From Halanaerobiaceae bacterium (lineage in GTDB: Bacteria > Bacillota > Halanaerobiia > Halanaerobiales > Halarsenatibacteraceae), in contig PWDW01000060.1 in NCBI GenBank assembly GCA_003553225.1, positions 1-64,000 of the forward strand: 64,000 nt of DNA, read 5' to 3'. Below are positions 24,859 to 46,562 of the stretch, piece after piece. A program made the translations under genes and the position numbers. The notes under the pieces are model-generated. The model was given only the letters and a program-made list of their open reading frames with translations, searched no databases and was not told the DNA's origin. Within the stretch, counting starts at the first letter, position 1. Each line of letters starts with the position of its first letter.

Positions 24859-25650
24859 CTAGCGGCATATGCCCCGGGTACTGCTTTTTAAAAAACGCAT
24901 CAAATGTTCAATCTCTTCACTTGTCTGCAGCTCCTGATCCATTATATCAATAGCCTGGCTGACATTATGGTCCGATCTATATAAAATATTATATGCTTTC
25001 TCAATCTCCCGCTCCAGACCTGCCGAAAATCCTTTTTTGGTCAGTCCCTCACTGTTTACTCCCTGTACCTGAGCGGGATGTCCTTCAACCATGATATAGG
25101 GCGGAAGGTCCTTAATAACCTTGGAATGAGAACATACCCGGGCCAGCTGTCCGATCTTGACAAACTGATGAATCCCCACCATCGGGGCCAGAAAAGCATC
25201 GTTTTCCACCATCACATGTCCTGCCAGATTGGTAGAATTACTTAAGGTAATATTATTCCCCAGATTGCAGTCATGAGCCACATGGGAATAGGCCTGAAGA
25301 TAATTATCATTACCCAGCCTGGTCTCACCTCCACCTTCCTCTGTACCCCGGTGAATAGTTACATATTCACGAATGACATTATTATCTCCAATATACAAAA
25401 ATGTTTTTTCCCCTCCATATTCCAGGTTCTGAGGAGGAAGTCCAATAGAAACTTCATCATAAATTGTATTATTTTTCCCAATCTGGGTCCATCCTTCAAT
25501 TTGCGTATATGCTCCTATAGTTGTTCCGGATCCAATTTCAACATGTTCCCCAATAACACTGTAGGGACCAATTTCCACCCGTTCAGCAATACGGGCCCCA
25601 CTGTGAATTACTGCTGTTTCATGGATTCTGGCAAACTCATTATACTTCAA
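24859..25650 (-). CDS. lpxA: UDP-GlcNAc acyltransferase LpxA (active-site residues intact)
   Basis: This 263-aa left-handed beta-helix protein has the usual LpxA length (262 in E. coli). It catalyses the first lipid A step, acyl transfer from hydroxyacyl-ACP to the UDP-amino sugar in the cytoplasm. The E. coli active-site histidines 122, 125, 144 and 160 correspond to His123, His126 (general base), His145 and His161 in YSHVAHDC, AGHVMV and GIHQF. GVNSEGL is also conserved. It lies outside the main lpx operon, between LptD-like and DegT genes. A second LpxA-like gene at 38809-39642 lacks these histidines, so this copy is probably the true LpxA. Confidence 0.93.
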   Translation of the reverse strand: MKYNEFARIHETAVIHSGARIAERVEIGPYSVIGEHVEIGSGTTIGAYTQIEGWTQIGKNNTIYDEVSIGLPPQNLEYGGEKTFLYIGDNNVIREYVTIHRGTEEGGGETRLGNDNYLQAYSHVAHDCNLGNNITLSNSTNLAGHVMVENDAFLAPMVGIHQFVKIGQLARVCSHSKVIKDLPPYIMVEGHPAQVQGVNSEGLTKKGFSAGLEREIEKAYNILYRSDHNVSQAIDIMDQELQTSEEIEHLMRFLKSSTRGICR

Positions 25651-25666
25651 GAACTTTCACCTCAAT

Positions 25667-27328
25667 TTAAAAATTAATGTTAAAATCTATTATATCATTA
25701 CCTATATCATAATTAAAGCCCAGCTCAAAACAATCATATTCTCTGCTGAGACCAATATTTAGTGACTCCCAGGTCCCCGATGTCTGTTCATATGCTATTT
25801 CCCCCGACAGCCGCCAGAAGGAATCAGGTTCAGGCAATTCAAAGCTTAAATTAATACCTGTACCCAGCACCATACTGTAATCGATAATTCTTCTAAAATT
25901 TTGCAGCTCTATACTGTTTTTTACCGAGAGCTGACCCTGGAGGCTCAAATCTTCACCTATGTTATAATCAGAAGCATATGTAATACCGGTACCCAGCTTT
26001 TGGGAAAGATCCACAAAAGACCATTCACTAAAATTATATCTTAAATCACCCGTAAATTCCAGAGTTAAATTATCTTTCGGCAGCCAATTCTGTTTGGTTT
26101 CCAGACCCAAATAACCTGCTCCCTGCTGGAAATTATTTTCCAATATCAATTTGTTTTCACCCGGCTCCCATTCCGTCTCCACCATTAAACGGGCCCAGGA
26201 ACGAATAATCTCATCTGTCAGTAAATAATCAATTTCTCCTTCAAACTGCCAGTTATCTTCTTTATACAATATTTCTGCTGCTAACTTTTGGTCTAAATCA
26301 TAATTTAAAAGACCGGCTGCTTTAAAATCAGCTGCCTGATATGCAGTATAAAAACGGGAGCCCCATTCCTCCCGAACTTCTAATCCATCATGGATCCGGA
26401 CCCAGTTGATCCCGGACTCAAATAACAGATCATTGGTGTATTGATACCGACCACCCTGATAGCTGCCATATACCCGGTCACCTTCACTGTTTCTGTAATA
26501 TTCCAGTTCACTTATGTAAGTCAGCCGGGGGTTTATAGGCCATCTGTTCTGCAGTTTTAGGTCAATCACACCCTGCTGTTCTAACAGCAGCGAAATCTGG
26601 CCCTGAATCTCTTCACCAACCTGATAGGGATATATTACTTCCATAGTAAGTCCGGTCTGTGAGCTGTATCCTATTGAAGGTACGGGAAAAGGGTGGCTGA
26701 TCTCATATTCACCATCTATTTCCTCATAATGAACCACATACCCGGGGAGCTGCAGCAGCCTGTTATCCCTCCACCACAGAGAAACCTCAGAACCGGTGAT
26801 TCTTTTTTCGGGATAGATGCGCACTTCAGCGGCCCTTATTGAATAATGAGGGTCATCATCAAAACGGCAGGTGGTAAACATCGCCTCCTGCAGATGCAGA
26901 GAGTATTCGCGATCCCGGTATATGTTTATTATTCCGCCCGAAAAGTTTACAGCACCAATCTCACTCTCGGCCTCATACAGCTGACCGGTCCGCTGTTCAA
27001 TGTCAAAATAAAGATAATTTCCGGTTATTTTCTGATCAGCACTTATCAGCATAACCCGTTCCCGGGCCTCGATTATACCCTCCTGAAGATCAATTATCAG
27101 ACTATCAGTCCGGACCTCAAGATCCTGATATCTAAATACAACATCCCCGGTAGTGGAAATAATATTGTTTTGATAATCATACCTTATATCATCACCTTCC
27201 AGAAGATATTCCCCACCGGCCGCAGTATTTGAATATGCTGTCAACAGGATAACAAAAAAAATAATCAAAAAGACAAGCACATTATGAAAAATTTTTGAAT
27301 GCAAAAAAATCACCCTCTGAAGTGCCAA
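25667..27328 (-). CDS. LptD-like LPS assembly protein (second copy, stand-alone)
   Basis: This 553-aa protein has a signal-anchor-like N-terminus (about 8-35), an LptA/OstA-type beta-jellyroll (about 40-150, with GDDIRYDYQNNIISTTGDV), and then LptD signatures: FTTCRFDDDPHYSIRAAEV, IYPEKRITG and PSIGYSSQTGL (about 215-225). The remainder is a beta-strand barrel ending in DFNINF. LptD inserts LPS into the outer leaflet. At 553 aa it is shorter than E. coli LptD (about 780). It shares the window with the LptD half of the 41720-45037 fusion, so the cell has two LptD-like proteins. It leads a unit with lpxA (16-base gap). Confidence 0.85.
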   Translation of the reverse strand: MALQRVIFLHSKIFHNVLVFLIIFFVILLTAYSNTAAGGEYLLEGDDIRYDYQNNIISTTGDVVFRYQDLEVRTDSLIIDLQEGIIEARERVMLISADQKITGNYLYFDIEQRTGQLYEAESEIGAVNFSGGIINIYRDREYSLHLQEAMFTTCRFDDDPHYSIRAAEVRIYPEKRITGSEVSLWWRDNRLLQLPGYVVHYEEIDGEYEISHPFPVPSIGYSSQTGLTMEVIYPYQVGEEIQGQISLLLEQQGVIDLKLQNRWPINPRLTYISELEYYRNSEGDRVYGSYQGGRYQYTNDLLFESGINWVRIHDGLEVREEWGSRFYTAYQAADFKAAGLLNYDLDQKLAAEILYKEDNWQFEGEIDYLLTDEIIRSWARLMVETEWEPGENKLILENNFQQGAGYLGLETKQNWLPKDNLTLEFTGDLRYNFSEWSFVDLSQKLGTGITYASDYNIGEDLSLQGQLSVKNSIELQNFRRIIDYSMVLGTGINLSFELPEPDSFWRLSGEIAYEQTSGTWESLNIGLSREYDCFELGFNYDIGNDIIDFNINF

Positions 27329-28677: not shown

Positions 28678-31260
28678 TTAGAATTCAACGGACAGGCCAC
28701 CACTTACTCTTCTGATTTCATAGTCTGCCAGATCGTCACTGCCTTCAAAGGCTTCAAACTTAGTGTCTTCCAGACTGAGGTCAGCGTTAATACCTTCTAC
28801 TACTTCATAATCCAGACCTACATTGTATTCATGCAGAATACCACCGGACTGGAAGATTTCATAGGAACTGTCATCAAAGACAGTGTGACCGAATTCCTTG
28901 TTACCATAGCGGTAACCACCGGTCATGGTCAGGCTGTCAGTCATTGCCTTTTCAGCATCGATACCGGCTTCCATGGCTGTACCCATTTCATCTGCAAAGT
29001 CACCCTGGTCTGTTATAATACCATAGTAAGCATAGGGCATCAGATCCAGGCCAAAGGGTGAGAGCAGCACATCTTTGTCCATATTAACGGTACCGAATCC
29101 AACAAGTGCATTATCAAGCTGATTCAGATATTTGATGGCGGTAACTCCAAAGATTCCCGGAGTAAATTCTCCACCATATTCATGCAGAATAGCATCGGGA
29201 TCAGCATCTGCATGGAAGTCCCGGGACAGATCAGCCCAGGCCTTCATGTCACCAACTGCATACTGGGCAAACAGAGTACCCAGAATTTCGTCTGTGGTAT
29301 AACCTGCACCTTTGATATCATCATCAGGATCTACTTCCAGGTCACCAGGTGCAAAGTCATCTCCGCGGTTCACATAATTCAATCCGGTTTCTACGGTCAG
29401 ATTGGTGATTAAATCCCAGCTTCTAAAGAGATTATATCTGAGATAGGAAGCATCATCATAGTCAACCTGGTTTTCATAAACCAGGGTGTTTTCAAAACCG
29501 AATAGTTCTTCATAGGCACCAAATGCCAGATGCATGCTGGTAGCTTCAGGTTCATAATCCTGCAGCATCATTTCGATATTCAGAAGATTCAGCCCACCAT
29601 AGATGTCATATCCGGTATTCTGATCAAAGGGATCGGATGGATGAACTCCCACCAGATCCTGATTGTTGTGATAGTTAAATTCCAGAGCCTGAATGGGGCC
29701 AAAGGCATCACGGGCCACATTAAGGTGCATATAGTACTCGGCAAAACCGATATCACTGACGGCAAAGGTCGGTGTAATGTCAAAACCGGCCAGCTCAATC
29801 AGGGTATCCATTCCTACTACACCGTTAAATTGATCAATTCCTGGTTCATTTACTCCATCTTCAACGGCAAAGAGATACTCCGCACCAAAGTTAATATTCA
29901 GCGGGTTCTGGAAGGGTGAAATGCCCAGCAGCTGTCCCATGGTGGTCTGACCACCAATTGCATTTTCATGCAGGGCATAGGTGTAATCTTCATCATAAAC
30001 AGCGGTAACACCATCTACAGGATCGGTGAAAAGATAATCGGTCATACTAATTTCCTGACCAGAATCAATTACGGCGGTTAAGTTATCAGTGGTAATTTCA
30101 CCTTTAATATAGTCACCAATAAAACCATCAGAAGTATCAACTGCGATTAAATCTTCTAAAGTAACCAGTAAGTCCAAGTTGGCAGCAAAGCTGGGTCTCT
30201 GCAGCAGTACATTGACTCCAACTTCATGATTGAAATGGTCATCTGTAGAAATTAAGAAATCACCAACTTCATCCATATCTATGCCAGAATTATAGGGATC
30301 TACAAAATAATATCCACCTTCATCTACCCAGCCATCCCACCTGTAATAACTGGCAGAATAGGAAGGATCAACAAACTGAACAGTTGGTTCTTCAGCCAGT
30401 TCTTCTTCTATGGCTGTAATTTCAGCACCCAGATCTTCAATAGCATCATTCAGGGCGTGATAGCGCATCTGCTGCAGTCTGCCGGCAGTTTCAACATCAA
30501 CTTCCAATCTATTCAGACGGTTAACTAAATTATCAACATCGGTCTGAATCTCCTGCAGAGCTTCCATCTGGGCCTGCAGTTCATCAACATCATCCAGCAG
30601 TCCACCCAGGCGGGCCATATTGGAGCCCACATGACCCTGAACATTTTCCAGCTGAGTTTCCAGAATTCTTATATCAGTCTGCAGCTCGGCCAGATCATCT
30701 TCAGTTACTTCCGGATCTTCGGGAAGCTCATCCAGAGTGGCCTCTATGTCTTCTATAGTAGCAGTCAGTGTATCATAACGCATCTGGCTCATTCTGGAGA
30801 CTATATCCAGCTCAACTTCCATTCTGTCAACCTGTTCCTGAAGATCGGAAGTCATCCGCTCAACCAGCTGAGCTATTTCTTCTTCATCAACAGTTTCTAC
30901 TTCATCGAGCATGGCATTTACTATAGATTCTACAGCTTCTGCCTGCTCAACTGTCAGTCCTGCTTTTAATCTATCAACATCATTCTGCAGATCCATCAGA
31001 ATATCATAAAGATCATCATTATCTTCCTGGATCCTTACCCAGGCCCGCTCAAAAGCAACAGCAAATTCGTAACGAGTAAAGGCCTGATCACCTTTGTATT
31101 CACCATCCGGATAACCTTCAATTACTCCGGTTGCTGCGAGTTCCTGAATAGCGTCATAGGCCCAGTGATCGGGGTCTACATCAGGAAAAGTTCCGGCTAC
31201 AGCAGAAAAAGAGAGTGTAAACACGAGCGCCAAAGCCAACAATATACTTAATTTCTTCAT
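28678..31260 (-). CDS. ompM: OmpM-type porin: SLH domain, coiled coil, beta-barrel
   Basis: This 860-aa protein has a signal peptide (about 1-22), one SLH domain (about 24-75; FPDVDPDHWAYDAIQELAATG, then FTRYEFA), a coiled coil of roughly 200 residues (about 85-290) and a long C-terminal beta-barrel ending SGGLSVEF. This layout is the OmpM family of diderm Firmicutes, where the SLH domain grips the peptidoglycan-linked polymer and the barrel sits in the outer membrane, tethering the two. The coil has two similar copies of a segment with MRYHAL/MRYDTL, hinting at internal duplication. It is monocistronic, with a strong promoter, a leader of about 355 bases and a strong terminator, as expected for an abundant protein. 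Confidence 0.92.
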   Translation of the reverse strand: MKKLSILLALALVFTLSFSAVAGTFPDVDPDHWAYDAIQELAATGVIEGYPDGEYKGDQAFTRYEFAVAFERAWVRIQEDNDDLYDILMDLQNDVDRLKAGLTVEQAEAVESIVNAMLDEVETVDEEEIAQLVERMTSDLQEQVDRMEVELDIVSRMSQMRYDTLTATIEDIEATLDELPEDPEVTEDDLAELQTDIRILETQLENVQGHVGSNMARLGGLLDDVDELQAQMEALQEIQTDVDNLVNRLNRLEVDVETAGRLQQMRYHALNDAIEDLGAEITAIEEELAEEPTVQFVDPSYSASYYRWDGWVDEGGYYFVDPYNSGIDMDEVGDFLISTDDHFNHEVGVNVLLQRPSFAANLDLLVTLEDLIAVDTSDGFIGDYIKGEITTDNLTAVIDSGQEISMTDYLFTDPVDGVTAVYDEDYTYALHENAIGGQTTMGQLLGISPFQNPLNINFGAEYLFAVEDGVNEPGIDQFNGVVGMDTLIELAGFDITPTFAVSDIGFAEYYMHLNVARDAFGPIQALEFNYHNNQDLVGVHPSDPFDQNTGYDIYGGLNLLNIEMMLQDYEPEATSMHLAFGAYEELFGFENTLVYENQVDYDDASYLRYNLFRSWDLITNLTVETGLNYVNRGDDFAPGDLEVDPDDDIKGAGYTTDEILGTLFAQYAVGDMKAWADLSRDFHADADPDAILHEYGGEFTPGIFGVTAIKYLNQLDNALVGFGTVNMDKDVLLSPFGLDLMPYAYYGIITDQGDFADEMGTAMEAGIDAEKAMTDSLTMTGGYRYGNKEFGHTVFDDSSYEIFQSGGILHEYNVGLDYEVVEGINADLSLEDTKFEAFEGSDDLADYEIRRVSGGLSVEF

Positions 31261-33707: not shown

Positions 33708-34805
33708 TTAACGGCCCACCCGGATCAGCATCAGGCTGCCAGCGGCAAAAAACACCAAATTCTGCATCCAGGCTCCCAGCCAGGGAGGAATAGTTCCTCC
33801 GGTCCCCAGGGCTTCTCCCACACTCATCAATATATAGTAAAGAAAAATAACAATAATACTGATCCCCATGCCCACTGCTGAGCCCCCGGATCTCCTCCTC
33901 TTAATTCCCAGGGGAGCGGCCAGCAGTACAAATATAAAATTGGCAAAAGGAATAGAAAGCCGCATATGCCATTCAACTTTTTGTTCAGCAGTATCCTGAC
34001 CCTGTTCCTCTTTTAGGGCTATAAGCTCTGCCAGTTCACCCAAATTCATGTCTTCTGTATCTTTGCTCATCTGGGAAATTCTATCCGGTTCAGCGGTAAT
34101 CTGACCGGCCTCCCAGCGGGAAAAACTGATCTCCGGAACTCTGGCCCCCGGTTCCAGATGATAAATAACCCCTTCGTGAAAATACCAGGAAGCATCAACC
34201 CAGCGGGCCTCCTGGGCCTTAATTAAGGTGGCCGGACGATCCTGATAATAATCATGGAAGAATACATCGCTCATAATTCCCGTATCAGCATTAAAATGAC
34301 CGGCATAAAGAACATAATCAGGATAACCGGTTTCAGAATCAATAGGAGTCCAGAACAGATCACTCTGAGTTCTTGGTCTAACCTCACCCCGCCTTATTTC
34401 GTGCATCATCTGATTAAAGATATAATTAGCCCGGGGAACCACAGCTTCATTTATTCCGATAGTTAAAAAACTCATCAACAGCCCCAACAGCAGAGCCGGG
34501 ATTAATATTCTGTATATGCTGACTCCCCCAGCCCGGAGGGCCACGATCTCACTATCTCCGGCCAGACGATTATAACACATTATTGTAGCCAGAAGGGTGG
34601 CCATAGGAAATGTAAAAACAATCACTGAAGGTAAAGATAAAATCAGCATTCTGATAACACTTATGATCCCAATTCCATATTCTATATATAAATCGGTTAG
34701 ATCAAAAAGGAGATCAGTACCGATGAAAATTGCCGTAAAAGCAGCAACTCCAAACAAAAACGGAATTAATAATTCCTGTGTGAGATAGCGATAAATAATC
34801 TTCAT
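33708..34805 (-). CDS. lptF: LPS export permease, LptF/LptG family
   Basis: This 365-aa inner-membrane protein has about six membrane segments (three before residue 125, three after about 285) around a periplasmic jellyroll (about 135-260). Family landmarks include TFPMATLLATI, the MRLSIPFANFIFVLLAAPLGIK segment and GGTIPP near the end. LptF and LptG form the channel of the LptB2FG exporter that lifts LPS from the inner membrane. It is directly downstream of lptB. A second family member is the N-terminal third of the 41720-45037 fusion, so the pair would make LptF/LptG. Which is F and which G is not certain. Confidence 0.88.
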   Translation of the reverse strand: MKIIYRYLTQELLIPFLFGVAAFTAIFIGTDLLFDLTDLYIEYGIGIISVIRMLILSLPSVIVFTFPMATLLATIMCYNRLAGDSEIVALRAGGVSIYRILIPALLLGLLMSFLTIGINEAVVPRANYIFNQMMHEIRRGEVRPRTQSDLFWTPIDSETGYPDYVLYAGHFNADTGIMSDVFFHDYYQDRPATLIKAQEARWVDASWYFHEGVIYHLEPGARVPEISFSRWEAGQITAEPDRISQMSKDTEDMNLGELAELIALKEEQGQDTAEQKVEWHMRLSIPFANFIFVLLAAPLGIKRRRSGGSAVGMGISIIVIFLYYILMSVGEALGTGGTIPPWLGAWMQNLVFFAAGSLMLIRVGR

Positions 34806-34875: not shown

Positions 34876-35595
34876 TTACATCCTGAATTTTTCACCCAGA
34901 TAGAACTTTCTGGCCAGCTTGCTATCCGCTATTTCCCGGGAATTCCCGGATAACAGGATTTGTCCTTCATGCATAATATATGCTCTATCGGTTATGGAAA
35001 GAGTTTCCCGGACACTATGATCGGTGATTAGTACTCCCAGCCCCCTGTCTTTTAAAAACTGTATTATTTCCTGTATATCTTCAATCGCAATAGGGTCCAC
35101 CCCTGTAAAGGGCTCATCCAGAAGTATAAAATCCGGTTCTGTGGCCAGAGCTCGCGCAATTTCAACTCTTCTTCTTTCCCCTCCCGACAGCTGATATCCT
35201 ATTCTATCACGAATATGCTCTATTTGAAAATCCTGGAGGAGATTTTCCAGACTATTCTGCCGCTCTTCGGCAGTCAGATCCTGGGCCTGAAGAATGGCAA
35301 GTATATTATCCTGAACAGACATTTTCCGGAAAATAGAGGCCTCCTGAGCCAGGTAACCAATTCCTCTGCGGGCTCTTTTGTGCATGGGTAAAGAGGTCAA
35401 ATCATCTCCATCCAGAGTTACATACCCTTCATCGGGCTGAATAAGGCCCACCACCATATAAAAGGTAGTTGTTTTTCCCGCACCATTGGGACCCAGCAGC
35501 CCAACAATTTCGTTTCTCTGAACACTGAGGTCAACCTGATCCACTACCCGCTGCTTGTTATATATTTTCACCAGGGATCTGCAGTTTATGGTCAC
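34876..35595 (-). CDS. lptB: LPS export ABC transporter ATPase LptB
   Basis: This 239-aa ATPase has Walker [18 protein letters not shown] (about 35-51), signature [15 protein letters not shown] (about 137-151), Walker [16 protein letters not shown] and the switch His in ITDHSVRET. Length and the FTGVDPIA extension are typical of LptB. It powers LPS extraction by the LptFG permeases. Its GTG start overlaps the lptA stop by four bases (GTGA), so translation is coupled. Confidence 0.95.
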
Positions 35596-36257
35596 TGCTC
35601 ATCCTCTCCAGTAAAAATTAGACTGGCATTGCCCTGCAGATTAATTACTTCCTCCTGAGTATCAACATCTACCCGATCCGCAGAAAACTCCTGATTATTT
35701 CTTGTACCCTCTACCTGTTCTTCCAGCCGGGCTCTTCCGCTGGCCAGATAATAAATCAGACTTCCGGCCCGGGCAGTAAGATCCAGATGCTCAATCTCAA
35801 CTGCACCCTGCATTTTGACTATTTCCTCTCCCATACTGTAATTCATCCGGTTTCCAACGGCCCATATATCCGGTCCCCTGAACTCCAGGTCCTCATAAAT
35901 ATCCGCTGCTTCTTCACCCAGATTACCTTCCAGACGTCCTCCAGAGAGCACATAATCACCATATTCAATCCGGAGGTTTCCTTCCATCATCAGGTCTTCG
36001 GTGTCAAATAAATAATCCAGAATATCACCGAAAAAAACCATATCCCGGTATTGAAAAAAAACACTGCCCCGGGCATTAACACTTTCCTCTGATAATTTTA
36101 TTTCTTCAGCCTTTAATTCACCATCAAGGCGGGCCTGAGCTTCATTCCCGGCCAGACTGCAGATAGAAAAAACAATAAGCAGTAATGAAAAAAATCCCAG
36201 CAAAATTTTGCGATAATTTTGAATTTGGCTTCTCTCCCGATTTATAAAAAATCTCAC
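35592..36257 (-). CDS. lptA: LptA/OstA-family periplasmic LPS transport protein
   Basis: This 221-aa protein has a cytoplasmic basic start, a membrane signal segment (about 20-42) and an OstA-type beta-jellyroll (about 45-215) made of short repeated strands such as [20 protein letters not shown]. LptA-like units bridge the periplasm between the inner-membrane Lpt complex and LptD. It is encoded between lptC and lptB, the classic order, with four-base overlaps on both sides. The GTG start is supported by GGAGGG. Two other OstA-type proteins are in this window (41057-41689 and the N-terminus of 25667-27328). Confidence 0.88.
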
Positions 36258-36850
36258 TCTGTTCCCTCCTTAAACTTAAAATTAGCCCTTTTGTCTCCAC
36301 CTGTAATCTCCAGTTCTTCCAGTGAAGAGTCACTTTTAAACTCCCTGCCGGTCATCACAAATCTGGGGGTTTCAAAAACGAATCCTCCCCTGCCCTGCAG
36401 GGTATCATCTTCCTGATTCCAGGTTATTTTTTGTGTTTTTATAATATTATCACCATGATGTATCTCAATATCTCCTTCAATCTGTAAAAATTCTCTATCC
36501 AGATAATAATCACCACTGCCGGCCCACAGATAATATATTACATTATTTTCCCGGGTACTGTCATACACATCTATTTTTACCGGAGAAAACTGAATTTTTC
36601 CTGTTGTTCTATCTATGGAAAAATTATCGGATTCCAGAACCCATTTTCTTGTTTTGTTATCATTATATAATTCAAAACTGGTGTTTTCGAGCAGCATAAG
36701 CTCCTCAGAATGCTCCTGTTGGGGATGTCTTTCCTGTTCTTCGGAGATAAAAAAATAATCATAAAAAAGCATTACAGCTCCCCCGGCAGTTATCACTAAA
36801 ACCATTATGATTAATAATATCCGGTTAATCTTTATACCCCTGATTCTCAC
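36254..36850 (-). CDS. lptC: LptC-like LPS transport protein
   Basis: This 198-aa protein has one N-terminal membrane anchor (about 10-32) and a periplasmic OstA-like domain with DNKTRKWVLESDNFSIDR, typical of LptC, which passes LPS from LptFG to LptA. Its end overlaps lptA by four bases and its start overlaps the lpxB end by 26 bases. The GTG start at 36850 has a weak ribosome binding site; an ATG 15 codons in would cut into the anchor, so the exact start is unsure. Confidence 0.85.
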   Translation of the reverse strand: MRIRGIKINRILLIIMVLVITAGGAVMLFYDYFFISEEQERHPQQEHSEELMLLENTSFELYNDNKTRKWVLESDNFSIDRTTGKIQFSPVKIDVYDSTRENNVIYYLWAGSGDYYLDREFLQIEGDIEIHHGDNIIKTQKITWNQEDDTLQGRGGFVFETPRFVMTGREFKSDSSLEELEITGGDKRANFKFKEGTE

Positions 36851-38808: not shown

Positions 38809-39642
38809 CTAATCTGATTTATTTCTTACTATTCCCAGCTGCGATTTTTTTAAAAAAGCAATAAAATGATTTATTTCCGGTCCAAAATCACTGCTGTCAA
38901 TCTGCTCCTGTATATTAGAAATAGATTCTTCAATATTATAGTTCTGGCCAGAGCGATAGACTATTTTATATAATTTTTTTACCAGTTTTCTCAAATGGGG
39001 GTCAAATTCATTACGGCGCAGCCCAATGATATTAACCTTTATTCTCAGGGGGTTATGCCCATCAACCAGCATATAAGGAGGTACATCTTTGTCCACCCGA
39101 GAATGTCCACCCACCATGGCTATTTTACCAATTCTAACCTGTTCTTTTACCGTACACAAACCGGCAATAACAGCTCTGTCTTCTACTATAACCCCGGAAC
39201 CAAAACAGACTGCATTGGAAATTATTATATTATCACCCAGCTGGCAGCCTTCTGCAATCCGGCAATAGGCCATAATAAAATTATCAGAACCAATACGGGT
39301 AACTTCATTTTTACCCCCGGTATAAATGGTAACATTTTCTCTGATAATATTATTATCACCTATCTCCAGACTAACCCCCTTATTAGTTTTTGTGTTTTGG
39401 GAATTAACCCCCAGCACAGCTCCGTGATATATATGGTTATTTTTGCCCACCGTAATATTGCCCTGTAATACAACATGAGGCCCTATTTCGGTATCAGAAC
39501 CGATCTTAACCTCTTCACCTATTATGGTATAAGGGCCAACTTTTACATTGCTGCCAATCTCGGCCTCCGGATGAATGGTGGCTGTATCATGTACATGGGC
39601 CATGTGCAGCAGGTTATCCTGTGCATTATTACTGGATTTCAC
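38809..39642 (-). CDS. LpxA-like acyltransferase paralog lacking active-site histidines
   Basis: This 277-aa left-handed beta-helix protein lies exactly where lpxA normally sits (fabZ-lpxA-lpxI-lpxB) and keeps LpxA features (ATIHPEAEIG, GSDNFIMAY, DVPPYMLVDG). Yet the four catalytic or contact histidines of LpxA are replaced: by alignment with E. coli His122/125/144/160 they read Arg128, Glu131, Gly150 and Lys166 (RIAEGC, GSGVIV, TVKEQV). It may have another acyl or sugar substrate, be a regulator, or be non-catalytic. GTG at 39642 is chosen, with AAGGAG nine bases upstream. The complete LpxA is at 24859-25650. Confidence 0.85.
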   Translation of the reverse strand: MKSSNNAQDNLLHMAHVHDTATIHPEAEIGSNVKVGPYTIIGEEVKIGSDTEIGPHVVLQGNITVGKNNHIYHGAVLGVNSQNTKTNKGVSLEIGDNNIIRENVTIYTGGKNEVTRIGSDNFIMAYCRIAEGCQLGDNIIISNAVCFGSGVIVEDRAVIAGLCTVKEQVRIGKIAMVGGHSRVDKDVPPYMLVDGHNPLRIKVNIIGLRRNEFDPHLRKLVKKLYKIVYRSGQNYNIEESISNIQEQIDSSDFGPEINHFIAFLKKSQLGIVRNKSD

Positions 39643-39664
39643 AACTATCGTCTCCTTTCCTGAT

Positions 39665-40102
39665 TTACTTATCCTGTAGTACAAAAGTTAATATTGCTTC
39701 TGCTGCCAGCTCATCCTGAACATAGCTTTGACCCTGAATGCGAGCCAGTGTTCCTCTCAGCCGCAGAAGTTCTCCTTTAATTACCAGGGTATCACCCGGA
39801 ACCACCGGACGCCGAAATTTGGCCTTATCAACTCCCGTAAAGTAGGGCACTTTACCTTCCGTATCCTCAACACTTTGATATAACAAAAAACCACCCACCT
39901 GGGCCATAGACTCCAGAATTAGCACCCCCGGCATAATTGGATGTCCGGGAAAATGGCCCTGGAAAAATTCCTCATTAATGGTCACATTTTTAATCCCGGT
40001 AACCTTCTCCTCCGGTTCAAGTTCACGGATACGATCAACCAGAAGAAAGGGATAGCGGTGAGGAATTATAGATTTAATCTCATTAATATCTAGCTTTCCC
40101 AT
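39665..40102 (-). CDS. fabZ: 3-hydroxyacyl-ACP dehydratase FabZ
   Basis: This 145-aa hot-dog-fold enzyme dehydrates (R)-3-hydroxyacyl-ACP in fatty acid elongation and competes with LpxA/LpxD for hydroxyacyl-ACP. Signatures: IPHRYPFLLVDR (about 14-25) and the active-site helix GHFPGHPIMPGVLILESMAQ (about 51-70) with catalytic His and Glu. It lies between lpxC and the LpxA-like gene, a widespread lpx arrangement. Length matches E. coli FabZ (151). Confidence 0.95.
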   Translation of the reverse strand: MGKLDINEIKSIIPHRYPFLLVDRIRELEPEEKVTGIKNVTINEEFFQGHFPGHPIMPGVLILESMAQVGGFLLYQSVEDTEGKVPYFTGVDKAKFRRPVVPGDTLVIKGELLRLRGTLARIQGQSYVQDELAAEAILTFVLQDK

Positions 40103-41056: not shown

Positions 41057-41689
41057 CTATGATGAGATATCAATCTCCAGTTCAACATCACCTTCTACTT
41101 CAAACCGATCCTCTTCTGCTCCTGTAAAAAACACGGCCCTGTTTCCTCTGATCCAGTCCCCATCTTCCTCTTCAATAAATACATCCTCTGTAAGCACCAT
41201 TTGTTCTGTTTCTTCGTCAAAATCAGCCTCTCTTGATCTTAGTTTGCGCTGATCATAGTCAATTTCGACTCCATCACGGGCGGCAAAAGTTTTGGCCTCT
41301 TCATTCAGCTCCAGAAAAGGAGAACGTATAATGATTAATCTATCCTCCTGTTCACGAGTGAACTCAACATTTTCCCGGAAGATGTAGCGGTTGCTTTCCA
41401 GCAGAGCGTTTAATCGGCTGCTGGTAATATTACCATCAGCAAAAATCATTTCCACTTCCTGTTCCAGCTCAGCCTCCCTGGATTCCCGGAAATATTCTCC
41501 CCGCAGAGCAGTAATTGTCACCTCACCCCGGATAATGGTTACTCCTTCTCTCAATTCTATTCTTTCATCAAGGTAATTTAAAAAACCCGCTTTCAGCTGT
41601 ATGGTATCCTCAGCCCGTACTGTGCTCCCTGCAGCTATAAACAGGAAGATCAACAGGCCCAGCAGTATAACAGCAAATTTTTTGCTCAT
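41057..41689 (-). CDS. second LptA/OstA-like periplasmic protein
   Basis: This 210-aa protein has a signal peptide (about 5-26, ending VRAED) followed by an OstA-type jellyroll of short repeated strands with pattern VTITALRGEYF and SRLNALLESNRYIFRENVEF. It resembles LptA but is distinct from the copy beside lptB. It is encoded 30 bases after the LptF/G-LptD fusion, so it may be the bridge unit for that protein. The protein is very acidic. A general LPS-transfer role is inferred from fold and context. Confidence 0.8.
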   Translation of the reverse strand: MSKKFAVILLGLLIFLFIAAGSTVRAEDTIQLKAGFLNYLDERIELREGVTIIRGEVTITALRGEYFRESREAELEQEVEMIFADGNITSSRLNALLESNRYIFRENVEFTREQEDRLIIIRSPFLELNEEAKTFAARDGVEIDYDQRKLRSREADFDEETEQMVLTEDVFIEEEDGDWIRGNRAVFFTGAEEDRFEVEGDVELEIDISS

Positions 41690-41719: not shown

Positions 41720-44700
41720 CTATTCCAGAAGTTCTGTAATACCCAGATCAAAGCTCAACTCTCTATCTTCACCAAGTCCAAATTCAAAGCCATGTTCGGG
41801 CAGCAAATTTATAACATATTCGACAGTAAATTGTCTTTGGGCATGATTATAGCTAAACCACAGCTCCCGACAGTGAAAATTGCGTTTAACAACCGTTTCC
41901 AGGTCATATTCAGCTCCCCAAAACTCGTTTTTTTGGCTGTGTAAAATTTCTACATACCAGAGATCCTCAACTTCATATATAAACTGATTATCCCATTCTT
42001 TTAATTCATCCCGCAAATATTCATATTTTAAACCACTCTGGAATCTCCAGTTATAATCACTTTCATACTGGCCCTGCAGGGCAATAATTCCTTCCGGAGA
42101 AGAGGTGAAATCTCTCTCCAGACCCAGGTTCAAATTCCAGTTTTCCCTTTCCAGCTCTGAGCTTAATTCAAAACTCTGGTAGGCTGCTTTGTAAAAATCA
42201 TATTCCAGACTGCTTTCAACAGCCCAACCACCCCGTTTATAATCGGCAGCTAAAATTAAATCTTCAGGATGACGGTCTTCAATATTATATGAAGCTTCTG
42301 CTCCCAGATTTAAATGGGGCGTAACCTGGTATAGGGCCTCTCCCAGCAGAGGTAAAAATTGTCTGTTCAGAATATCATATCCTGTTTCCAGTTCTAAATC
42401 AAAATCGGATGGACTGTAATTATACGCTGCCTGAAGTTCATGTTCCCGATAAATGCGGTCAAAACCAAGAGGGCTTTCCCGGCCCAGATAATTACTGTAG
42501 AAATGATCTAATCTACCTGTAGAATTTGCCCCCCATCTGTATTCAAGACCGGTTTCTCCGGTAAAACCAAGCTGATAGGACACAGGTTTTTCTTCTCTTT
42601 CCGGAAGGCGAAAAAAATTATTGCTGATATTATAATTTGTGTTTAAATATATATTTTCAGCAGGTGAAAATCTGGTATCATATTCCAGCCCATGGACCAT
42701 TTTTTCAGCTCTTTCATCCACTCCTTCTTCCCGATAACGGCCCAGGGAAAAATGGTAAATAAAATCAAAAGGTAGATAGTGCTCATAATTTATTTCTGGC
42801 CAGCGGTAATAGGTAGTATCAGCACCATTATCAGTGCTGTTAAACTCGGGATCATATCTTTCCATAATCAACCTCAGTTCTCCGGAAGGACTTCTTCTCC
42901 TGATAAAATTATTGGTCTCCCAGCGAAAAACTGCCTCCTGTTCGGGCTCCAGGAGGTACTCTCGACCATACTGAAAATTGATCAACCAGTAATCACCCAG
43001 GTAGCGCTGATATTCAAAATCCAGCTCCAGTTCCTGTATATCATCAGCTGTTGAATCATCATAATCCTGTCCGGCAAAATCACTATGTAAGAATATCGTT
43101 TCTCTCCGCTCCTGATCACTATAATCCAGGTTTGCTCTCCCTTCAACCTCCCGGTATTCATCATATCTGGTGTATTCTGCTTCAATATCTGTATCCCATT
43201 CTTCTCCTTCGGTCAGATATGTAAAACGGGTCTGGTAATCAAACAGGCCCCTGAGATTTATTTTATTCTGCTGATTGTAAAAATAGAGATAACTTTCCCG
43301 GCCCTCTTCCCGGATAAAATAATGTTTAAACCCCGCAGCAGCACCGGTACGGGTGAAATAATCCAGATATAAACTGCCCGAATTTCCATCTTCTAAAATA
43401 TAATTGTAAATTATTTTTACAAACCAGCCCCGGCGTTCATTATAACCAACACTGGGAATAATACCTTCATCTTCTTCTTTTAGAGAAAGATAAAGATAGG
43501 GCCAGTAAAAAAGAGGCAGACTGCCGCCCAGCTCATAAAAGACAACATGCCGGGCCGTAAGATAATCCCCGGGATATATTGTAGCTTCCCGGGCCTGAAA
43601 ATAATAATGGAACACTTCTTCATCACAGCCGGACATTTTACCGGTAGTTATGTCAATTCTTAAAGGCCCTTCCAGCTCCTCTGTTTCTCCATCTTCCCGG
43701 ACCACATTTATCCGGTCTGCCTGTAAAAAAACATTTTTGTGTCGGCCCCTGATGGAGCCGCTTAATTCTATTCCCTGTTCACCATAAGTCACTTTATCAG
43801 CTTCCAGATTAAGACGCTGTTCGGCAAAAACTGAAAGGCTAAAAACAGAGCTGAAAAGAAACATAAAAATACAGCTAAAAAATAAAGTTGATTTTAATAA
43901 TTTAAAAAGGCCTCTCAGCTTATTTAGTTTTGTCTGTACCCTCTGATGTGCGGTACGGAAGTAGATCAAAACCAGACCGGCCAGGGCAAATACTATATTG
44001 GGAGTCCAGGCTGCGGCCAGAGGCGGGATCATGCCATTGCGGCCCAGCGAACGGAGCAGAGACTGCATAAAATAATATAAAAATATTATTACAATTGTAA
44101 ACACAATTCCTGCCGCCCGACTGCTGTTTTTACCCAGGCTTAAGGGAGCCCCGATGAGTATAAAAATCAGAGGTATAAAAGGGGTGGCCAGTTTAAGGTG
44201 ATAATCAACGACCAGGGAAACCACTGAAATTCCGCTTTTTTGAAATAGCTCAATCTCACTTTTCAGTTCCCGGCGGCTCATTTCCCGGGGGGTCCTCTGC
44301 CGCCCATAAAGGGAGCTTATATCCCGGGCCACCTGGATCTCCATGTCTTCAAAATCACCTGCAAGCTCGAGCTGACCATGTTCATCATAGGAATGAATAA
44401 CCCCTTCGGACAGAAACCAGATATTTTCTCTTATCTCACCCCGCTCAGCTGTGATAATTTCGGGGTACTTGCTCTGAGAACTCTTATTGAAAATAACAAT
44501 ATTAAAGACCCTGCCCAGCTCTTCATTAAACTCATTGACAAAAAACAGCCGCCCTTCAGGGCCTTCAAAAAAAACATCCTCCTGTACATCAGGAGCAGCC
44601 TGTTTTAAAATTGAGAGCCGAATAATATTCTGGGCCCGGTGATTGGCCCAGGGAACAACCCTTTCATTTAAAAGAAAGGTCAGCCCACTTACTAAAACAC

Positions 44701-45037
44701 CCAAAATAACGAGGGGAATTACCAGCCTGTATAAACTTACTCCTCCCATCCGCAGAGCCGTAAATTCATTATCACGATTAAGCCGGCCCAATCCATATAT
44801 GGTCCCAAACAAAATTGCCATAGGGAAAGTTTCCACAATAATTTCGGGCAGCTGATAGATTAACAGCTCCACGACCTCAGCCACCGGTATCTGTTCAATT
44901 ATAATCAAATCCGCCATTTCATATAAAAAACCGCTCAACATAATTACTTTTATTAGCAAAATACCAATCATGAGCGGATACAGAACCTGTTTAAAAATAT
45001 ATAAATCAATCAATTTTTTGTTCCAGCTGGGGATCAT
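41720..45037 (-). CDS. LptF/G permease fused to LptD outer-membrane protein
   Basis: One uninterrupted 1105-aa frame. Residues 1-361 are a complete LptF/LptG permease: membrane segments at about 15-40, 60-82 and 103-124, a periplasmic jellyroll, then 285-360 with TPFIPLIFILIGAPLSLGK and GMIPPLAAAWTPN. A basic linker (362-380) leads to a signal-peptide-like segment (about 381-405, ending SVFA/EQ). Residues 406-1105 are LptD-like: OstA strands, then EEVFHYYFQAREATIYPGD, LPLFYWPYLYLSL and PSVGYNERRGWF, then a strand-rich barrel. The halves belong to opposite membranes, so signal peptidase cleavage near 405 is likely. No internal start codon with a ribosome binding site is seen at the junction. 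It sits between lpxD and an LptA-like gene. Confidence 0.9.
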   Translation of the reverse strand: MIPSWNKKLIDLYIFKQVLYPLMIGILLIKVIMLSGFLYEMADLIIIEQIPVAEVVELLIYQLPEIIVETFPMAILFGTIYGLGRLNRDNEFTALRMGGVSLYRLVIPLVILGVLVSGLTFLLNERVVPWANHRAQNIIRLSILKQAAPDVQEDVFFEGPEGRLFFVNEFNEELGRVFNIVIFNKSSQSKYPEIITAERGEIRENIWFLSEGVIHSYDEHGQLELAGDFEDMEIQVARDISSLYGRQRTPREMSRRELKSEIELFQKSGISVVSLVVDYHLKLATPFIPLIFILIGAPLSLGKNSSRAAGIVFTIVIIFLYYFMQSLLRSLGRNGMIPPLAAAWTPNIVFALAGLVLIYFRTAHQRVQTKLNKLRGLFKLLKSTLFFSCIFMFLFSSVFSLSVFAEQRLNLEADKVTYGEQGIELSGSIRGRHKNVFLQADRINVVREDGETEELEGPLRIDITTGKMSGCDEEVFHYYFQAREATIYPGDYLTARHVVFYELGGSLPLFYWPYLYLSLKEEDEGIIPSVGYNERRGWFVKIIYNYILEDGNSGSLYLDYFTRTGAAAGFKHYFIREEGRESYLYFYNQQNKINLRGLFDYQTRFTYLTEGEEWDTDIEAEYTRYDEYREVEGRANLDYSDQERRETIFLHSDFAGQDYDDSTADDIQELELDFEYQRYLGDYWLINFQYGREYLLEPEQEAVFRWETNNFIRRRSPSGELRLIMERYDPEFNSTDNGADTTYYRWPEINYEHYLPFDFIYHFSLGRYREEGVDERAEKMVHGLEYDTRFSPAENIYLNTNYNISNNFFRLPEREEKPVSYQLGFTGETGLEYRWGANSTGRLDHFYSNYLGRESPLGFDRIYREHELQAAYNYSPSDFDLELETGYDILNRQFLPLLGEALYQVTPHLNLGAEASYNIEDRHPEDLILAADYKRGGWAVESSLEYDFYKAAYQSFELSSELERENWNLNLGLERDFTSSPEGIIALQGQYESDYNWRFQSGLKYEYLRDELKEWDNQFIYEVEDLWYVEILHSQKNEFWGAEYDLETVVKRNFHCRELWFSYNHAQRQFTVEYVINLLPEHGFEFGLGEDRELSFDLGITELLE

Positions 45038-45085: not shown

Positions 45086-46144
45086 TTATTTATCCGAATT
45101 TTTTTCTTTTAGTTTCTGTACTTCCTGTTCCAGTTCCTTAATCCGTTCTTTCAGCTCCGGAAGCCGCCTCAGGCTGGCCCTCTCCTTTAACTCCTGTCTG
45201 TGCTTTTGAGCCGGAATACCGGAATAAAAACCCTTTTCCTGCAGATCTTTGGAGACCATACCTTTACCCCCTACAGTAATCTCATCACCCAGGGAAACAT
45301 GATCAACTACTCCCACCTGCCCGGCGGTTGTGACTCGGTCTCCGGTTTTAGAACTGCCGGCAATTCCGGTCTGACCAGCAATTAGATTATCTTCTCCCAG
45401 GCATACATTATGCGCAATCTGAACCAGGTTATCTATTTTTGTCCCCTTTTTAATAACTGTTGTGCCGGAGACAGCTCGATCAATACACACACAGGCCCCT
45501 ATTTCCACATTATCTTCAATTTTTACTTTTCCCAGCTGAGGTATTTTTACATTTTCTGTTCCGGACCAGACATAACCAAAACCATCACTGCCGACAACAC
45601 TTCCGGGACCAATCTCCACTCTACAGCCCATACTGGTCCCATGACCGATGACTGCCCGGGGATGTATAACAGAAAAATCACCAATTTCAACTTCTGCCCC
45701 CACATAAACACCGGGCGCTAAAATAACTTCATCCCCAATAATAGCTCTATCATCAACCACTACCCCGGGATGAATACTAACCTCATGGCCCAGTGAAGCT
45801 GAATTGGATACTTCTGCACTGTCATCTACACCGGGGTTATAGTAAGGCCGGGGAGCAAAAAATCTGGCTGCCCGGGCATAGGCCAGCCGGGGATTATCAA
45901 CTTTAAGAACATCTATTTCATAATCCTCTTCCGAAATCTCTTCCGGGATAATTACCAGTCCCGCTTCCGCCTGAACCGCTTTCTCCAGCAGCTGTTTGTT
46001 TTCGGCAAAGGTAAGAATTCGGGGCCCGCTGTGCCCTATTCCGGCAGCTCCTGTAATTTTTTTTTGGGGGTCTCCCTTTAGGGAACCGGAAACAATCTCG
46101 GCCAGTCGAGAAGCTCTTATAAATTTCGGATCATTTTCATTCAT
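45086..46144 (-). CDS. lpxD: UDP-3-O-acylglucosamine N-acyltransferase LpxD
   Basis: This 352-aa hexapeptide-repeat acyltransferase adds the N-linked hydroxyacyl chain in lipid A synthesis. It has an N-terminal uridine-binding domain (about 5-100), a left-handed beta-helix (about 110-300) with GSDGFGY and the catalytic His in NLVQIAHNV, and a C-terminal helix predicted to form a coiled coil (about 320-350). The ATG at 46144 overlaps the preceding stop (ATGAATGA) and has GGTGGGGGA upstream; an earlier in-frame start would add ten residues inside the upstream gene. Confidence 0.95.
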   Translation of the reverse strand: MNENDPKFIRASRLAEIVSGSLKGDPQKKITGAAGIGHSGPRILTFAENKQLLEKAVQAEAGLVIIPEEISEEDYEIDVLKVDNPRLAYARAARFFAPRPYYNPGVDDSAEVSNSASLGHEVSIHPGVVVDDRAIIGDEVILAPGVYVGAEVEIGDFSVIHPRAVIGHGTSMGCRVEIGPGSVVGSDGFGYVWSGTENVKIPQLGKVKIEDNVEIGACVCIDRAVSGTTVIKKGTKIDNLVQIAHNVCLGEDNLIAGQTGIAGSSKTGDRVTTAGQVGVVDHVSLGDEITVGGKGMVSKDLQEKGFYSGIPAQKHRQELKERASLRRLPELKERIKELEQEVQKLKEKNSDK

Positions 46145-46562
46145 CTCCCCCACCATCCTCCAGGTGCTTTTCATCCAGAATATTTATCGTTTCCTCAGTT
46201 ATGTCATTTCCGCCATGAAAAATACTTTCCTGACTGACAATAATATCCAGGTTTTTCTTTTCCTTTATTACCTGCAGAACATCCTCAATTTCTTGATCAA
46301 AATCTTTTTCCAGAGCCTCTTTTTGGGACAAATACTGCTGATAGGCTTCATCCTGTTCATACTCATCTGAAAAGTCATCCTGAAGCTCACTGCTTAATTC
46401 AGCAAGTCTATCCGAATAATGCCGGGCCCTGCCGCTTTCTTCAAGCAGATAATCCATATCCAGAACCCCAATCAGGTGTTCTTCTTCTGAACCACAGGCA
46501 CTTAATAAAATAAAAGCTGTCGAAACCATTACCACCAGAACAATTATTCTCAATAACTTCAT
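46137..46562 (-). CDS. OmpH/Skp-like lipoprotein
   Basis: This 141-aa protein has a lipoprotein signal with lipobox LLSACG (Cys near residue 23), then HLIGVLDMDYLLEESGRA and a charged coiled coil (about 45-105) ending in LDIIVSQESIFHGGNDITEE, the Skp/OmpH pattern of a helical hairpin with a beta end. Skp-like chaperones hold unfolded OM proteins. Lipidation would fix it to a membrane, unlike soluble Skp. It sits in the bamA-ompH-lpxD run and overlaps the lpxD start. Confidence 0.82.
   Translation of the reverse strand: MKLLRIIVLVVMVSTAFILLSACGSEEEHLIGVLDMDYLLEESGRARHYSDRLAELSSELQDDFSDEYEQDEAYQQYLSQKEALEKDFDQEIEDVLQVIKEKKNLDIIVSQESIFHGGNDITEETINILDEKHLEDGGGDE

Follow-up and report, generated by a model that had tools for sequence, protein, structure and literature searches.

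In the window analyzed here, a stretch of 64,000 nucleotides from a Halanaerobiaceae bacterium (contig PWDW01000060.1), a single minus-strand gene joins an inner-membrane LptF/LptG permease to a predicted outer-membrane LptD, and this fusion is conserved in many Halanaerobiales. We consider it quite likely that the product is a polyprotein which signal peptidase I cleaves after Ala405; this would provide a 1:1 co-translational supply of both proteins to a second Lpt line. The 1105-codon frame contains no internal stop, in agreement with the sequence-only reading that preceded this analysis and that had described the permease and LptD as joined without stop or frameshift; the frame is intact, also in 20 relatives, and the residue numbering of that reading was right, the strand (minus) being absent from it. 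The relevant features are:

41720..45037, minus strand: fused lptF-lptD gene, with ATG at 45037, 1105 codons and a stop ending at 41720
43952..45037, minus strand: permease half, LptF/LptG, residues 1-362, with six hydrophobic segments (PF03739, hydropathy)
43883..43951, minus strand: predicted basic cytoplasmic linker, residues 363-385
43823..43882, minus strand: residues 386-405, core and c-region of a putative internal signal peptide, with the predicted cut at 405/406
43478..43822, minus strand: predicted LptD periplasmic jellyroll, residues ~406-520, with Cys471 (AlphaFold strands, LptA/LptD profile matches, invariant columns)
41723..43477, minus strand: predicted LptD outer-membrane barrel, residues ~521-1105, with the nearly invariant Cys1056 (AlphaFold model, Foldseek)
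45086..46174, minus strand: lpxD, next upstream, 48 bases from the fused gene
41057..41689, minus strand: LptC/LptA-like periplasmic protein, next gene downstream (PF06835/PF03968)
36254-36850, 35592-36257 and 34876-35595: LptC, LptA and LptB genes, respectively, beside the core permease
33708..34805, minus strand: core LptF/G permease (PF03739)
25667..27328, minus strand: core LptD2, 553 aa (LptD profile, fold)

The ATG of the fused gene is preceded by a Shine-Dalgarno-like AGGTG with a spacing of 10. The codirectional genes downstream of the fusion are those for the LptC/LptA-like protein, lpxC, fabZ, lpxA, lpxI, lpxB, lptC, lptA, lptB, and the separate LptF/G, and an orthologue of the LptC/LptA-like gene lies downstream of nearly every fused gene whose neighbourhood was examined. 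Two LpxA-like acyltransferase genes (24859-25650 and 38809-39684, both on the minus strand) occur within one cluster, and the LpxA proteins of relatives are mostly closer to the former. An OmpM-like porin of 860 aa, with an SMC-like coiled-coil stretch at approximately residues 86-290, is encoded at 28678-31260 on the same strand.

In the permease half, the PF03739 (LptF_LptG) model matches residues 13-359 with E 6e-94 and 315.4 bits, the cut-off being 27.9, and is covered from position 2 to 352 of 353. Hydrophobic peaks near residues 14-40, 66-80, 97-124, 281-302, 305-328, and 344-363 follow, by hydropathy only, the six-TM layout in which a large periplasmic domain follows the third segment. 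The coupling-helix-like glutamate E91 is invariant in all 21 fused sequences. Since both NCBIfam equivalogs, TIGR04407 and TIGR04408, score under their cut-offs (LptG, 204.6 versus 240 bits; LptF, 168.7 versus 230), the permease is not assignable to either LptF or LptG.

By its modelled fold and by profile, the C-terminal half of the fused protein is LptD. Pfam LptD models gave no match to this half of the window protein at cut-off, and PF03968 matches weakly in four of the 21 fused members. A phmmer search of PDB sequences with the single LptD half produced only weak unrelated matches, and a scan of the genome collection with this half alone retrieved nothing; an alignment used as the query did retrieve relatives. 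Further, a profile of 21 relatives matched nine chains among the PDB sequences, all of them LptD or LptA (best E 0.012). The AlphaFold model of the LptD half (41723-43822) is of moderate quality (pLDDT 76), and the first 37 PDB matches found with it by Foldseek are all LptD, the best having an E-value of 2.8e-17 and the best non-LptD barrel in the list one of 3.0e-6. The TM-scores of the model to known LptD are only about 0.3, so the geometry of the barrel is not settled; the model has about 34 barrel strands, at low alignment depth, versus 26 in Escherichia coli LptD. The motifs IYPGD, YWPYLYLSL, and GYNERRGWF, named by the sequence-only reading as hallmarks of LptD, are all present in the protein. 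Among the 21 fused sequences, Cys471 in the N-domain is invariant and Cys1056 near the C-terminus is conserved in more than 90%.

The junction has the same layout in all 21 fused sequences, namely, basic residues after the last permease helix, an uncharged stretch of 17-25 residues, and an [AVSGT]xA site. In the window protein this segment ends in ...SLSVFA/EQ at residues 405/406, where SVFA/EQ had been noticed before. Our signal-peptide test is a motif rule of our own definition rather than a trained predictor; a looser -3/-1 rule is satisfied at most helix ends (19-21 of 21) and is uninformative, therefore the strict [AVSGT]xA rule alone was used. As a control, the strict motif occurs at the ends of TM1-6 in 0, 1, 4, 6, 3, and 0 of the 21 sequences, and its background is 12% of any 18-residue windows; because the fused sequences share kinship, these motif counts are not independent trials. 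On average, sequence pairs are 59% identical in the permease, 41% in LptD, and 25% in the junction, and such quick drift around a fixed cut site would be the behaviour of a signal peptide. A single signal peptidase I gene is present in the genome.

Beside the cut polyprotein, the sequence-only reading had considered a covalent trans-envelope link, in which uncut LptD would remain permanently tethered to the inner-membrane permease. The single stop-free frame, long kept in the clade, is what such a tether would need, but we regard it as very improbable: the cut site has stayed intact amid the fast-drifting junction, fission has been repeated in evolution (see below), the single short jellyroll, only a few residues past the site, cannot plausibly span to the outer membrane by established envelope dimensions, and a separate bridge-protein gene is retained next door. 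Of the two, cleavage by signal peptidase appears the likeliest. It is just as improbable that LptD is translated separately from an internal start codon of the long frame, an outcome that the same reading had set against its own proposal. Some relatives do have GTG, TTG, or ATG codons in the junction, and in one of them (L013) an AGGTG stands ahead of a TTG; however, no conserved internal start or Shine-Dalgarno sequence was found at the junction among the 21 sequences, and three relatives (L018, L019, and L021) have no start codon whatsoever there. The only start-type codons in the junction of the window gene are TTG357 and ATG392, the latter lacking a Shine-Dalgarno sequence and lying within the hydrophobic core.

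The uninterrupted fusion is present in 20 genomes from other families, namely f3, f5, f6, f7, and f8, with lengths of 1041-1138 codons stop to stop, and both halves align along their full length among the relatives. In one genome of family f4 (G010), a same-frame fusion reaches a contig end. Named carriers, taken from a second genome collection that partially overlaps with the 20 genomes, include Halanaerobium saccharolyticum, H. kushneri, Fuchsiella alkaliacetigena, and Candidatus Frackibacter, with cultured species among them. Related families contain split pairs in the same frame, as close as one stop from a fusion, so that two adjacent genes could in principle have become fused through decay or through an error in sequencing or assembly; however, a frame error is rejected because relatives share the fusion, and with 20 further genomes and an independent clade carrying it, both halves being conserved, we assign this explanation a negligible probability. 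Relatives with a stop and a start at the junction had been foreseen as the sign of such an error, and the fusion-bearing genomes have neither.

The trees of both halves fit a single fusion in this clade, with fissions as the probable later events. In the permease tree, the fused genes fall into a single clade (97/93) together with the solo permeases of families f1 and f2 and two of f8, and in the LptD tree the separate LptD proteins of two genomes (G003 and G008) are nested among the fused set (93/96). The solo permeases terminate within the former linker, the second permease of G038 terminates within the hydrophobic segment, and LptD of the split relatives begins with an ordinary signal peptide at the place equivalent to the fusion junction. 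Since the split f1/f2 genes lie inside the fused clade in both trees, the two halves can work as separate chains. The window gene groups as sister of the split permeases of f1 with support of only 93/66, and some branches on which the count of fissions depends lack full support, hence the exact number is uncertain.

In family f10 and in Halobacteroidaceae MAGs, the permease and LptD genes lie next to each other, mostly in one frame, the spacer consisting of a stop, GAGGAR, usually a second stop, and then a GTG or TTG start. Only one stop separates the two genes in L095, and in L096, from the same family, they overlap in a different frame. Stop-codon readthrough was considered for the same-frame split genes of f10 and rejected, as a Shine-Dalgarno sequence and a start come after the stop, for which ordinary re-initiation is enough. 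In three other loci (L168, L172, and L173), the permease and LptD are in the same frame with a single TGA or TAG between them and no clear Shine-Dalgarno sequence right after it; re-initiation and readthrough are candidate explanations there.

A second fused set was found in eight genomes of families f47, f72, and f82 of the same phylum (L163-L167 and L169-L171; 1049-1140 codons; support 99/97), and it too has a hydrophobic segment and an AxA-type site. The permease of L171 starts in another frame, thus this copy may be broken or misassembled. Split lineages lie between the second fused set and the first, and parsimony, with a total of five changes, indicates that the fusion arose independently at least twice.

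The window encodes another permease (33708-34805) and another LptD-like protein (25667-27328), and both are indeed real separate genes by domain and fold matches, as the sequence-only reading had stated. The former is better regarded as a candidate partner of the fused permease, as it occurs without the fusion in ten relatives, and the latter, called a second LptD there, is near-universal. All 59 genomes of the class have a PF03739 match, the fused genomes mostly two; 58 of the 59 match the LptD profile, and LptD2, whose top PDB fold matches are LptD, is matched in 35 of the 38 genomes of the order. The core permease and LptD2 are almost universal in the class, and LptD2 is better read as its core LptD and the fused LptD half as an extra one. 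In ten genomes of the order (G002, G009, G014, G019, G020, G026, G028, G032, G034, and G035), the core permease is the only one above the family cut-off, together with LpxC and LptD2, and two of these (G014 and G019) are single contigs. These ten relatives keep the core permease alone, so it works without a fused partner; with LptD2 near-universal, the fused gene represents an additional module, usually accompanied by its own LptC/LptA-like neighbour, and is probably a second, dispensable Lpt line. One genome (G047, on L092 and other contigs) has six matches to LptF/G and ten to the LptD profile, several of them forming adjacent pairs; this multicopy set could be a mixed assembly.

An alternative, which competes only with the second-line part of our explanation, accepts the cleavage and proposes that the fused and core permeases form an LptF/LptG heterodimer, with one Lpt line served by two LptD barrels. 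Its probability is considerable, if somewhat short of even: most fused genomes carry exactly two LptF/G genes, both permeases of the window are in one LPS gene cluster, and the window genome contains only one close LptB, the next ABC ATPases being ~31-34% identical. Against the heterodimer stand the ten LpxC-bearing relatives with the core permease alone and family f11, where LptD neighbours its own tandem permease pair and a separate core permease is located elsewhere.

We suggest the following course for the polyprotein with a second line. The permease half would enter the inner membrane with both ends cytoplasmic, and the basic linker with the next hydrophobic segment would act as an internal signal peptide initiating export of the LptD half. 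Cleavage after Ala405 by signal peptidase I, as judged from the motifs, would then release mature LptD (residues 406-1105) to fold in the outer membrane and leave the permease with a short C-terminal tail. Since one chain carries both proteins, the output would be 1:1 per translation event, and the barrel, forming the end of a multi-pass membrane protein, would probably be delivered co-translationally. The fused pair, the adjoining LptC/LptA-like protein, and presumably a shared LptB would make up a second, dispensable lipid-export line beside the core one. Whether all this amounts to a dedicated second Lpt line, with permease and translocon made as one chain in a co-translational 1:1 ratio, evolved at least twice and possibly carrying a non-LPS lipid, is a more speculative proposition, which we put forward tentatively and hold to be rather less probable than its opposite.

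Halanaerobiales were reported to have a single LptF/G and no clear LptD/E (Antunes et al. 2016, PMC5007114), and lptD was never found in atypical diderms in a 2022 study (PMC8871954); LptD of Veillonella was later found outside the cluster (PMC5491611). The fused gene and LptD2 provide two LptD candidates for Halanaerobiales, LptD2 being a candidate for the LptD missed by earlier surveys. No description of an LptF/G-LptD fusion was found in the literature searched, largely outside subscription papers, in line with the sequence-only reading, whose author knew of none. If cut as proposed, the fused protein would be a natural example of one chain supplying two membranes, and an outer-membrane barrel could be supplied in a fixed ratio with its inner-membrane pump.

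Like LptF and LptG of the LptB2FG complex, the fused permease has a full-length PF03739 domain and six hydrophobic segments, and its E91 corresponds, with positional equivalence judged by motif only, to the coupling-helix glutamates E84/E88 that contact LptB in E. coli (PMC5082905). The usual LptF and LptG proteins stop after the sixth helix, whereas the fused one adds a putative signal peptide and a whole LptD at the C-terminus. With the LptD translocon, the fused half shares the jellyroll and the barrel, and it differs in having no N-terminus of its own, a short N-domain, and a model with more strands than E. coli LptD, which has 26. An inter-domain disulfide pair is known for the E. coli protein, and the fused half may resemble this arrangement, having one cysteine in its N-domain and another close to the C-terminus. 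Split lptF-lptD pairs of other diderm Bacillota (e.g., L079-L085 and L175-L181) encode the same two proteins in an unchanged order, and their genes often overlap or have a stop and a Shine-Dalgarno sequence between them; unlike the fusion, such pairs have two frames or an intervening stop, and LptD has its own start. Finally, FbcH of Bradyrhizobium japonicum is a cytochrome b-cytochrome c1 polyprotein separated at an internal signal sequence. Its one chain joins an exported partner to a multi-pass inner-membrane protein, as proposed for the fusion, but both FbcH products belong to one inner-membrane complex, whereas the LptF-LptD products would go to opposite membranes.
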